50,406 bases of DNA from Pseudanabaena sp. UWO311. Lineage in GTDB: Bacteria; Cyanobacteriota; Cyanobacteriia; Pseudanabaenales; Pseudanabaenaceae. The notes below the pieces were generated by a model that saw only the letters and a list, made by a program, of their open reading frames with translations, was not told the DNA's origin and made no database searches. The position numbers and the translations under genes are program-made. Positions within the stretch are counted from its first letter, which is position 1, and each line of letters begins with the position of its first letter. The stretch covers positions 1 to 50,406 of the forward strand of contig NZ_SJEE01000039.1 in the NCBI RefSeq assembly GCF_006937785.1, given 5' to 3'. Positions 6,969 through 10,658 of the stretch are shown here, piece by piece.

Positions 6969-7604
6969 TTATTTCCTTGGAAAATCATATGGAGCCATTG
7001 GTTTTAGGCGTTTAGTGACAATTTCCCAGTCAATTTTTGATGGTGGATTGAGAAAATTTGAGTAGGCAAAAGCCATTTGTTTAGCAGCTTCTTCAAAAGA
7101 CATTTTCCCTGTCGCTGTTCCTAACCCAGGACAAGCAACAACTTCTATTGGTGTAGAGTGGTGTCGATTATGCTTTCTTACTGCTAGCAACATTGCCCAC
7201 ATTGCTACATAGACATTGTCTGTATGAGATATTGGCATTGGTAGCCGCATGGTAGGGGTATGCGCGATAAATGGATGCTTTGGGTGTTGTGTCTCAACAA
7301 TCAGCGAAGTTCCAACAGGTTGTTCTCCCAAGTATTCTTGAATAATGCAGTGCTGCACTTGCCCCATTAATTTTTGTCCAAAGAAATCAATGATGGCTAG
7401 ATCTACTCCTCCATCCATCAATCCAAAAGAATTGGCTGCACTTACCATGCAATCAAATTCTGGTAGGTTTTGAAAATAACCTTGAACAATTTCTATGTTT
7501 GGTAAGTTTTGAAAATAAATTTCCCAGTTTTTACATAATTCTGCATTAGGAGCCACTAAGATTAGTTTTTTTAACGTATCTTTGCCAAACATATCAGTAG
7601 TCAT
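6969..7604 (-). CDS. Macro-domain-like protein
   Basis: The segment VSAANSFGLMDGGVDLAI (residues about 49-66) matches the ADP-ribose-binding loop of macro domains (AANxxxxxGGGVD-like), and ACPGLGTATGKMSFEEAA resembles the second, diphosphate-binding loop (PxxGTGxxG). Macro domains bind or hydrolyse ADP-ribose and its esters or adducts. At 211 residues it is a single domain with a short C-terminal tail. It follows the methyltransferase gene by 16 bp in an apparent desaturase-methyltransferase-macro operon. The substrate is unknown; a link to the two lipid/quinone genes is only by position. An AGG lies just upstream of the ATG. Confidence 0.75.
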   Translation of the reverse strand: MTTDMFGKDTLKKLILVAPNAELCKNWEIYFQNLPNIEIVQGYFQNLPEFDCMVSAANSFGLMDGGVDLAIIDFFGQKLMGQVQHCIIQEYLGEQPVGTSLIVETQHPKHPFIAHTPTMRLPMPISHTDNVYVAMWAMLLAVRKHNRHHSTPIEVVACPGLGTATGKMSFEEAAKQMAFAYSNFLNPPSKIDWEIVTKRLKPMAPYDFPRK

Positions 7605-7620: not shown

Positions 7621-8604
7621 TTATTTGTGAGGAATCGTTTCAGCAAGGGTTTTTGCGTTAACAGGCGATCGCACAGCTTTAAACATGCCAAAACGACAAA
7701 GTCCTGCCCCAAAAGCTAGACGCATTAATAAAATCGTGGGTATTTCCCTTACAGATTTAATAAATCCTGATACGCCAAAACTTATCAATCCTTTAGGACG
7801 CGCTACACCTTGCCAGATTGAATCTAGCCATGAAGGAAGAGTTTCTGCTGTCCAATCAGAAGTTGTTACCTTGCCATCGACGAAACCTGTCGCCTCCAAA
7901 AGCTCAGAGAAGCCTTCAATGCTTGAGAACTCAGGATGTGACCATTGATCGAGGAGTTGCTTCATTACAGGCTTCTCCCAAATATTTAGAGGCACTTGGC
8001 GATCGTCTCGCTGATTCCAATCTGCAAGTACTAGCAACCCATTGGGCTTGAGTACGCGCATCAACTCCTTTGCAAAAATAGCTTTGTCGGGCATATGTGG
8101 TCCCGCTTCAACTGACCAAACCACATCAAAGCTTGCATCAGGGAATGACATCGCCATCGCATCATCGACCTGAAATTGCAGATCAAGATCCTTTGGAGTT
8201 AGCTCTTGAGCACGTTTGACCTGCTCAGGGCTAATCGTAATTCCTGTAACGGAGAAGCCATAGTCCTTTGCCAAAATACGGCTACTGCCACCAATACCAC
8301 AGCCGACATCCAGAACAGTCGTTCCAGCAGGCAGCTTATCTAAGCCACCCCAACGCACCATCTCATGAACAAAATCAGATTTAGCAGTCAAGAAGTCTTT
8401 AGAACGCGGCGGCGAACCATAATGACCTAGATGAATATGTTCGCCCCAGTAGAACTCTAAAATGCCATCTTCTGTCCATTGATCATAGGAATTAGCAACA
8501 GAATCAGCAGATTGATAGCGACGTGCTGTAGCTAGATAAATGCCGATTCCTGCGATCGCAACTACTGAGATAGCTTCCAACGTAGTAATAAATAAATTCA
8601 TCAA
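7621..8604 (-). CDS. MPBQ/MSBQ methyltransferase (tocopherol and plastoquinone synthesis)
   Basis: SAM-dependent enzyme that methylates 2-methyl-6-phytyl- and 2-methyl-6-solanyl-benzoquinol. The sequence closely resembles Synechocystis Sll0418 as I remember it, including YQSADSVANSYDQWTEDGIL, the SAM motif VLDVGCGIGGSSRILAKDYG near residues 95-112, VWSVEAGPHMPDKA and FIKSVREIPTILLMRLAFG. An N-terminal membrane segment (residues about 5-27) would anchor it to thylakoid or envelope membranes. It begins two bases before the desaturase stop, so translation is probably coupled to that gene. Confidence 0.93.
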   Translation of the reverse strand: MMNLFITTLEAISVVAIAGIGIYLATARRYQSADSVANSYDQWTEDGILEFYWGEHIHLGHYGSPPRSKDFLTAKSDFVHEMVRWGGLDKLPAGTTVLDVGCGIGGSSRILAKDYGFSVTGITISPEQVKRAQELTPKDLDLQFQVDDAMAMSFPDASFDVVWSVEAGPHMPDKAIFAKELMRVLKPNGLLVLADWNQRDDRQVPLNIWEKPVMKQLLDQWSHPEFSSIEGFSELLEATGFVDGKVTTSDWTAETLPSWLDSIWQGVARPKGLISFGVSGFIKSVREIPTILLMRLAFGAGLCRFGMFKAVRSPVNAKTLAETIPHK

Positions 8605-8606
8605 GA

Positions 8607-9773
8607 TTAAGTCTTACCATTTTTGACAAGTAATTCTTCCAGCTTATTTTGATTTAGATGACTTTGCTCTATATCCAGAGCTGTAGATTTTGCCTTGTGA
8701 AATTCAGCGATCGAGATGAGTTTACCTGCTTCAGAATCCCACAACACAAACTTGGCGCAACCAAGCATATCTCCAAGCCTTAGAGTTCTGACCTTGGAGA
8801 GAAGGTGAATATTTTCGTTATGACAAGCTTCGAGATTATAGTTAGGGATTCTCTCAGAAAGGTGATGGATATTATGAAAACCGATGTCTGCGGAAAACCA
8901 CTTCAAAATTGTTGGCAATTCTAAATAACTGCTACCATCAAGTGCTCCAAGGAGATAGTCCCAACCTTCTGTTTTGTGAGCATAGGAGTCTTCAAAGTTG
9001 TGCTGCACAAAAAACACGCAGATAAAGATTGCTGCTGAAAAAGTCAAACTGATTGAGTAAATGCTGAAAAAGAATCCTGCTCCGAGCAAATGGCTAAGGA
9101 AAATCCAACTACCGATAACGCAAATATTATTGAGTAGCAAATCTATAAATTCCGCCCCCGTATACCAATTTCTAGATTTGTGAGAAGAGATAATCGCGGC
9201 TAAACCCATGCGAGGGTCTTTCCTTAAACTGGAAAATATATGACCAATAAAATCATAGCTTCCTGCAATTAGTGCATATCTTGGTCTGATGGCAAGGTAG
9301 AAAAAGCCTCCCAAAAAAGACATTAATGGATGTCTCATTACGGCATAAAGCTTTTGATCGGAATCATTAAGCTTAGAGAATTCTTCAGTAGAGAGAAATG
9401 CTGCGACACCACGGTATCGTTCCCAATCCCCATTGGTTTTGTGGTGATAAGCATGACCTCTTGACCATGGATATTGGGGTATAGCATTAATCACGCCCAA
9501 AAAGAAACCAACAACTCTATTCACTTTTTTGGAAGTAAAGAGTGAATAATGTCCACAATCATGCATTAACGAGAAGCATCGCAATGAAAAGAGAGTCATC
9601 AAAATGATGATTGGTGGCAGAAACCAAAAAGATACTGCTGCTGCTTTAACTGCTAAAAACCATAGAGCAATATAGGGAACAACGGTATTCAGGATTTGAT
9701 AGGTTGCCCATAGATCATTGCTCTTCATGTAAGGAGCAAGAACAAAGTCTGATTTTTTAATTATATTTTCCAC
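8607..9773 (-). CDS. Membrane fatty acyl desaturase
   Basis: An integral membrane di-iron desaturase. The three histidine boxes are all present: HDCGH (71-75), HAYHH (107-111) and HNIHH (300-304), with hydrophobic segments before, between and after them as in acyl-lipid desaturases. The gene probably starts at GTG. It heads an operon with MPBQ/MSBQ methyltransferase and a macro-domain protein. The third box HNIHH differs from the HVxHH of classical DesA, so positional specificity is not assigned. A related membrane hydroxylase or ketolase-type enzyme is also possible, but the box spacing fits an acyl desaturase best. Confidence 0.85.
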   Translation of the reverse strand: MENIIKKSDFVLAPYMKSNDLWATYQILNTVVPYIALWFLAVKAAAVSFWFLPPIIILMTLFSLRCFSLMHDCGHYSLFTSKKVNRVVGFFLGVINAIPQYPWSRGHAYHHKTNGDWERYRGVAAFLSTEEFSKLNDSDQKLYAVMRHPLMSFLGGFFYLAIRPRYALIAGSYDFIGHIFSSLRKDPRMGLAAIISSHKSRNWYTGAEFIDLLLNNICVIGSWIFLSHLLGAGFFFSIYSISLTFSAAIFICVFFVQHNFEDSYAHKTEGWDYLLGALDGSSYLELPTILKWFSADIGFHNIHHLSERIPNYNLEACHNENIHLLSKVRTLRLGDMLGCAKFVLWDSEAGKLISIAEFHKAKSTALDIEQSHLNQNKLEELLVKNGKT

Positions 9774-9842: not shown

Positions 9843-10310
9843 CTAGGTTCTAATAAACCGATGTGATGATTCGGGCGGTGACCCTGTTGGCATAAATTCA
9901 TCCCAGCGATCGCATACTTGTTTGTAGCATTCTGAGGGAGAAATCTTCAGGTTTTGGAGACAGTAAATTTCGATATGTTGATCGATATTCATTGCCAGAA
10001 TGATCTCTTGTTGAGCATCATAGTTGGCGATCGCCTGCATTAATGACGGAATCTGTCTTGAACTGATACCCATTTCCAGTAAATAGGGTGCAGCAAATTC
10101 TGCTGCTATAAACTGAGTTCTAAATTGCCAAAGGTGAAAACTCGGCTTAAAATCAGCAGCAGGTTGACCGACAATACAAACTGTAATCCCTTTCCCTGAT
10201 GTTACAACACCCCTCAGGGCATGATATCCAATTAGTAAAAAATTATCTCGAATAAACTGAGGTTGCCAAGAATGGCAGATGTCCTGACGTTCTTTATGAT
10301 CTCGCAGCAT
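9843..10310 (-). CDS. Unknown protein, probably cobalamin-regulated
   Basis: I do not recognise the family. The 155-residue product is predicted soluble, with a hydrophobic core segment LLIGYHALRGVVTSGKGITVCIVG (residues about 26-49) and the remainder mixed helix/strand; no signal peptide or catalytic motif stands out. The ATG is supported by AGGAAG about five bases upstream, and an in-frame TAG further upstream rules out a much longer protein. It is the first substantial reading frame downstream of a cobalamin riboswitch, so its expression likely falls when B12 is plentiful. A 38-codon leader frame overlaps its start. Confidence 0.7.
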   Translation of the reverse strand: MLRDHKERQDICHSWQPQFIRDNFLLIGYHALRGVVTSGKGITVCIVGQPAADFKPSFHLWQFRTQFIAAEFAAPYLLEMGISSRQIPSLMQAIANYDAQQEIILAMNIDQHIEIYCLQNLKISPSECYKQVCDRWDEFMPTGSPPESSHRFIRT

Positions 10311-10410
10311 TGGACTTCCTATTTGTCTGCTTGATGCGATCGCCTTGGCACAGTTTTTGTGAAAGCTGGAGCAATTGTAAAACTTCTAAAAATTGCAAAC
10401 TAAACATCAT
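10294..10410 (-). CDS. Possible 38-codon leader ORF between riboswitch and unknown gene
   Basis: ATGATG preceded by GAGG five bases upstream opens a frame MMFSLQFLEVLQLLQLSQKL that continues for 38 codons and stops 17 bases inside the next gene. The good ribosome-binding site and overlap suggest translational coupling, or a leader peptide. It could equally be the 5' part of a frameshifted longer gene. No family is recognised. Confidence 0.35.
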   Translation of the reverse strand: MMFSLQFLEVLQLLQLSQKLCQGDRIKQTNRKSNAARS

Positions 10411-10464
10411 CTATACCTCGCAGATGAAAAAGTGTAGGTTTGTGAATCTTAAAAAGAGCCACTT

Positions 10465-10590
10465 TACGATCGGCGGGCATCCTGACTTAGAGATTGATGC
10501 ATCTCATCACAGTTGCGGGACAGCGCTGGGTTTACACCAAACTTTCCCCGTTTCCTCCAACGGCTGTTACCCGTTGGAACCGAACGATAG
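10465..10590 (-). promoter_or_regulatory. Cobalamin (adenosylcobalamin-class) riboswitch
   Basis: Read on the minus strand, the conserved B12-element blocks occur in order: a CGGTTCC stem region, GGGGAA, GGTGTAAACC, GCTGTCCCGCAACTGTGA and AGTCAGGATGCCCGCC. The last two are the signature of the receptor core and P1 closing end. The ends are approximate. A TACAAT -10-like box lies just upstream at about 10598-10603. A possible expression platform is AAAGTG pairing with CACTTTTT about 30 bases downstream of the aptamer. It reads toward the 38-codon ORF and the 155-residue unknown protein. Confidence 0.92.
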
Positions 10591-10615
10591 TCTCTTCATT
10601 GTAGGACATAAACTC

Positions 10616-10658
10616 AAAAAAGAGAAAGGCAGCGCAAAGCGCCGCCTTTCTCTTTTTT
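10616..10658 (-). terminator. Hairpin terminator after the decarboxylase gene
   Basis: Arms AAAAAAGAGAAAGGC and complement surround GCGC-AAA-GCGC. One core position is A opposite C on the plus strand but G-U on the minus strand. It immediately follows the minus-strand decarboxylase stop and ends in a T-run in that direction, separating it from the riboswitch transcript. Confidence 0.85.

Follow-up and report, generated by a model that had tools for sequence, protein, structure and literature searches.

In the window analysed here, a stretch of 50,406 nt from Pseudanabaena sp. UWO311, a vitamin B12 riboswitch is followed by a short ORF that runs into the start of a gene for a 155-residue protein, labelled P0001, which is predicted to fold like the carboxysome chaperone CcmS. 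We propose, from sequence comparison, that the riboswitch acts through the short ORF as a translational relay to P0001 and that P0001 is a CcmS-fold adaptor, a combined reading that we regard as evenly poised between right and wrong. Its individual parts vary in strength and are graded separately below.

The only match to Rfam at gathering scores in the window is the cobalamin riboswitch aptamer RF00174 at 10455..10599 on the minus strand (cmscan, 59 bits against a gathering score of 31.5, E 3.6e-12), in which 6 nt stand in place of 58 model positions. This covariance match bears out the original prediction, which had called a B12 element from conserved blocks. Of the span given there, 10294-10590, the first coordinate is the end of the short ORF, and the 5′ end of the aptamer lies 9 nt past 10590. 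Judged by the covariance model, the aptamer is a genuine vitamin B12 riboswitch, and it would control P0001. Just 5′ of it lies a terminator-like hairpin (10616..10658, minus strand, 20-pair stem and T tract), a long inverted repeat with a minus-strand T tract that sits between a decarboxylase gene and the aptamer. Given its A/T flanks, this repeat may serve as a two-way terminator that crowds the riboswitch promoter. The host assembly (5.21 Mb in 61 contigs) has three RF00174 matches including the one in the window. The second, on contig C47, precedes a 149-residue paralogue of P0001 that is 38% identical to it, and the third, at G000:C2:122817-122970 (minus strand), is followed by an ORF that we take to be HupE/UreJ-like.

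The association of P0001 relatives with B12 aptamers extends well beyond the host. A sequence search gave 42 matches to P0001 in 31 of 97 genomes, host included, and for 40 of the 42 an aptamer lies upstream on the same strand, among the aptamer matches listed for those genomes. Both exceptions are on one contig (G086:C89) that opens inside a metE gene, of which it carries the 3′ part; contig C104 of the same genome holds a 5′ metE part together with an aptamer. Scanning named genomes with the family alignment yielded 95 relatives, of which the best 80 were kept; the two sets overlap, as they have genomes in common. Upstream aptamers on the same strand were found in 77 of these 80 named cyanobacterial loci (lowest score 78.7 bits), using a covariance model trained on 11 aptamers that Rfam had identified and that are partly family-linked and in some cases from the same genomes. 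Of 13 loci that were fetched, Rfam itself calls the aptamer in all but one, G086:C89. Contig ends truncate the three loci lacking an aptamer (L061, L070, L126), two of which have metE upstream. Among the 77 aptamers, 46 lie within 1 kb of the family gene and 31 lie farther away, up to 4.3 kb, co-transcription being assumed for the latter. Five CcmS loci (L134-L138, 6-10 kb) showed no aptamer. In a wider draw of 292 genomes from the phylum, 34 had a profile match; nine of these have weak matches only (E 8e-6 to 2.4e-4), and in the five of the nine that were examined the matches are CcmS-like proteins. Three rows were left out of the family alignment, namely L050:3474-3956, whose match is to DUF1636, and one further copy each from L034 and L035; a later alignment of 70 rows comprises P0001 and 69 of 104 stretches, four low-scoring family fragments having been dropped. 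From this sequence context we propose that the P0001 family is part of a cyanobacterial B12-responsive regulon. The earlier suggestion that P0001 might be a new part of cobalamin physiology finds support in gene context, namely the aptamers at 77 of 80 loci and MetE, CobW and CbiO-like neighbours.

P0001 is encoded from an ATG start at 9843..10310 on the minus strand. The 38-codon ORF with its own ribosome-binding site, predicted to lie between aptamer and gene, is present at 10294..10410 (minus strand), with GAGG 5 nt upstream of its ATG; it overlaps the start of the P0001 gene by 17 nt (10294..10310, minus strand), and P0001 has its own AGGAAG at 10320-10315. Minimum-energy folding of the leader predicts a short hairpin with a 7-pair stem (10407..10427, minus strand) that places GAGG in its loop and the ATG of the short ORF in its stem, and this hairpin is a possible initiation-control element; taken in full, the leader 3′ of the aptamer is no more stably folded than shuffled sequences (z 0.21). 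When the P0001 locus was compared with four same-genus orthologues, all five sequences agreed at every position from the C of CATCT as far as the second ATG, and the distance from aptamer to P0001 ATG in the four orthologues was the same as in the window, with zero indels between.

It is possible, if somewhat unlikely, that this ORF is fortuitous and that the start of P0001 itself is what the riboswitch controls. Consistent with that alternative, the encoded peptide is not conserved: differences at codon positions 1, 2 and 3, summed over ten pairs, number 51, 46 and 38, and for want of a third-position excess the reading as a conserved peptide was rejected. There is also no similarity to MetE, and a MetE origin of the window's ORF was rejected, its MetE-end scores of 21 and 14 falling below shuffle maxima of 28 and 24. 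In addition, seven loci close to the host paralogue have the family gene starting 28 nt behind the aptamer with no such ORF. On the other side, the ORF is open in all five sequences compared, free of indels, and the position of its stop is kept even though the P0001 residues encoded there differ (HK, YK, HR). The recurrence of the 17-nt overlap, far above control, likewise argues against a fortuitous ORF.

The overlap was counted in 101 distinct plus-strand family genes of the named loci, leaving out 7 within 60 nt of an aptamer, 14 directly behind another family gene and 3 with unresolved starts. With upstream ORFs of 6 codons or longer considered, the overlap is exactly 17 nt in 43 of the remaining 77 genes, 14 or 11 nt in 11, another length in 3, and absent in 20. 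In 295 non-family genes from these loci, which form a rough control as their starts were taken as the 5′-most start codon while family starts were set by alignment, and as related loci are not independent, 17 nt was seen in 5, 14 or 11 nt in 2 and some other overlap in 143. Since overlap is thus common in the control (143 of 295), it is the exact length that stands out and not overlap as such. What overlaps the family gene differs between loci: some have MetE, CobW, DUF1636 or a methyltransferase there, others a short ORF. We therefore prefer the reading in which the short ORF matters for control, and propose from these sequences that the 17-nt overlap is a translational relay.

Some of these short ORFs have a recognizable source. 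Six of eight tested (L105, L111, L113, L118, L119 and L125) resemble MetE at both ends above all 100 shuffles, which is not the case for the other two, those of L100 and the window. These six thus seem, from sequence, to be metE remnants that retain the ends of the gene after an internal deletion. They are 41-60 codons long and lie between a B12 aptamer and the next gene; L116 and L152 contain metE remnants by profile match only. Similar C-terminal tails, -EE[VA]NATxx, are found in several loci on upstream proteins that are otherwise unrelated (MetE, CobW, methyltransferase, DUF1636), and the tail survives in deleted MetE genes. The explanation we prefer is that such tails arise only because the Shine-Dalgarno sequence and AATG of the overlap are translated. 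By analogy with CcmS, which binds the C-terminal tail of CcmK1, P0001-family proteins might instead bind the short tail of the protein encoded upstream, as a CcmS-type adaptor system for B12 starvation, but we consider this highly improbable.

In the proposed mechanism, scarce corrinoid would lead the riboswitch to let ribosomes start on the short ORF; these would terminate 17 nt inside P0001 and reinitiate, aided by its AGGAAG, to produce P0001. The desaturase and methyltransferase encoded downstream are probably on the same transcript. By analogy with CcmS, P0001 itself would be a small protein, probably a dimer, that serves some co-expressed enzyme as adaptor or assembly factor. We infer the OFF-switch sign, the reinitiation and the dimer.

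A relay of this kind has a precedent, as a B12-riboswitch uORF relay is already known in mycobacteria: according to the available part of PMC11260477, the B12 riboswitch of M. tuberculosis ppe2 was found by experiment to depend on uORF translation and to work by termination-reinitiation. That system and the window are alike in having a B12 aptamer, a short ORF, a stop/start overlap and a downstream gene of uncertain function. They differ in that ppe2, as described there, has a 4-nt AUGA overlap and PPE2 lacks a Shine-Dalgarno sequence, whereas the window has a 17-nt overlap, its own AGGAAG and a different gene. An RF00174 aptamer before metE is likewise already known in cyanobacteria from the Limnospira metE leader (available part of PMC8400943), and the present family often follows metE. 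That part of the paper mentions no following small protein and its authors suspect SAM as ligand; the window operon is without metE. The titles and abstract openings listed from the openly licensed literature include none that deals with this family, with CcmS relatives encoded in B12 operons or with MetE remnants serving as relays.

The original prediction had described P0001 as an unknown protein, and this holds insofar as no accepted match was found in Pfam, NCBIfam or PDB (PDB by single sequence); it does not hold insofar as P0001 has a remote relative in CcmS. Naming through Pfam s48_45 was rejected, that match being below the cut-off (E 0.018, 16 bits against 24). An AlphaFold model, made with 70 family members, has a mean pLDDT of 82.8, with 93 residues at 90 or above. 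Foldseek gave two significant matches for it, which rank first and second and are the CcmS proteins of Synechocystis (E 1.9e-5) and Nostoc (E 3.0e-4; next match 0.038), at 12-13% identity and a TM of about 0.5. VIA gave Z scores of 9.5 and 9.1 against CcmS over 114 residues at 3.4-3.5 Å, the next match scoring 3.1. Comparison of the family profile with a CcmS profile gave an hhalign probability of 96.8, the CcmS side consisting of five sequences. In the 97 genomes, the CcmS profile found 8 strong CcmS matches and 16 weak ones; all 16 fall at family members and include the host paralogue, while P0001 itself is missed at E 0.001. In the other direction, the family profile finds CcmS-like proteins in the wider genome draw; against PDB sequences it gave nothing significant (E 0.21). 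By its predicted model P0001 folds like CcmS, and by profile comparison it is a remote CcmS homologue.

CcmS (All1292 / Slr1911; PDB 8zlh, 9iur) is a beta-carboxysome assembly chaperone with which P0001 has its fold and detectable homology in common. Across 8 family and 5 CcmS sequences, although not in all rows, the two groups also have W, AW, YxP and PxC[YF]xxV positions in common. According to the available part of PMC11635287, CcmS forms dimers and contacts the tail of CcmK1, 12 residues long, through residues named as D51, Q53, H57, F58, Y60, D126 and E130. P0001 keeps two of these seven, at F58 and D126, an approximate count that depends on an alignment of distant proteins. With most of the CcmK1-tail contacts missing, we do not call P0001 a CcmS; it further differs in being only 12-13% identical and in belonging to a family that sits in B12-riboswitch operons, whereas the five CcmS loci lack the aptamer. 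It is very unlikely that P0001 is a carboxysome assembly factor made in place of CcmS under B12 limitation. Such a replacement would fit the fold, the homology and the absence of a strong match to the CcmS profile in the host genome, but it fits poorly with the loss of most tail contacts, with two genomes (G073 and G059) that carry both a CcmS and a family member, and with annotated neighbours that include no carboxysome gene. We instead suggest tentatively, by analogy, that P0001 is an adaptor for another partner.

The genes around P0001 offer candidates for that partner. Downstream of P0001, all on the minus strand and identified through Pfam, are a fatty acid desaturase family gene (8607..9773, PF00487), a SAM-dependent methyltransferase gene (7621..8604, PF08241) and a macro-domain gene (6969..7604, PF01661). 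The first two are likely in the same operon, as homologues of the desaturase adjoin family members and those of the methyltransferase recur in family operons. The macro-domain gene, 16 nt from the methyltransferase ORF, would be co-transcribed with it as a possible operon end. Across the 80 loci, lower bounds for operon genes are 53 for the methyltransferase, 28 for the desaturase, 20 for a full or partial CobW (12 of them longer than 300 residues), 13 for DUF1636, 12 each for MetE and a CbiO-like ATPase, and 6 each for a UbiH-like hydroxylase and a CMAS-like enzyme; the simple ORF filter used loses genes, retaining the family protein itself in only 74 of 80, and clusters were named from one or two representatives each. 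CobW was named from a single representative (TIGR02475, 485 bits against a cut-off of 332). In seven loci (L066, L068, L072, L079, L080, L094, L133) the CobW cluster is represented by no more than a 71-codon ORF. In picocyanobacteria, a family match was found in 6 of 151 genomes and the desaturase adjoins the family gene in 6 of 7 loci; the aptamer model matches before desaturase and family gene in L162-L164 and finds nothing before the family genes of L139, L140, L141 and L161. The variety of neighbours argues against one obligatory partner, and the desaturase is the neighbour retained in these distant relatives. The desaturase/methyltransferase pair provides the best candidates for a partner of P0001, although as a specific assignment this is fairly unlikely.

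Two side observations concern these operons. UbiH-like FAD hydroxylases (L086:3550-4869 and its cluster; NF005612, above cut-off) occur with a methyltransferase in B12-aptamer operons, and this methyltransferase presumably resembles the quinone methyltransferase Sll0418. In the metE/family operons of L034 (4098-5495) and L035 (3909-5306), both minus strand, a 465-residue protein is encoded beside an unnamed 239-residue one, and only about 100 residues of it, checked in L034, resemble the ribonucleotide reductase barrel.

The presence of CobW, CbiO-like ATPase and DUF1636 genes in the riboswitch operons could mean that P0001 handles cobalt or corrinoid directly, through binding, trafficking or salvage. 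We consider this unlikely, as the family shows no obvious set of metal ligands: over the 70 rows of its alignment C128 is invariant, C45 nearly so, and no His is invariant. To our knowledge CcmS has no cofactor site either. Cyanobacterial cobW is stated, in the available part of a 2009 paper (PMC2770081), not to be under a B12 riboswitch; the Nostocales loci L062, L073 and L083, among others of that order, differ from this, as an aptamer there precedes a member of the CobW cluster, which was named from L077.

Directly upstream MetE genes in several loci, and the internally deleted MetE remnants before the family gene, could also be explained if P0001 were a MetE accessory factor, left over where MetE is gone. 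This is quite unlikely. The host genome matches the B12 domain of MetH and gave no match to the MetE N-terminal domain in a domain search, yet has two aptamer-linked copies of the gene, and MetE was rejected as an obligatory partner. P0001 matches occur in 11 of 19 genomes with MetE matches, and in the region examined in seven of the other eight (L153, L165-L170) the profile found no family member, although L168 ends just after metE. Moreover, the family outlives the deletion of MetE.

Taken at the level of sequence, the P0001 family would add an unnamed protein family to the cyanobacterial genes under B12 control. By its predicted model, the CcmS fold would occur outside a carboxysome gene context. 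Finally, the metE remnants suggest that, in genomes losing metE, the two ends of the gene can persist and serve as a relay handing riboswitch control to the next gene.
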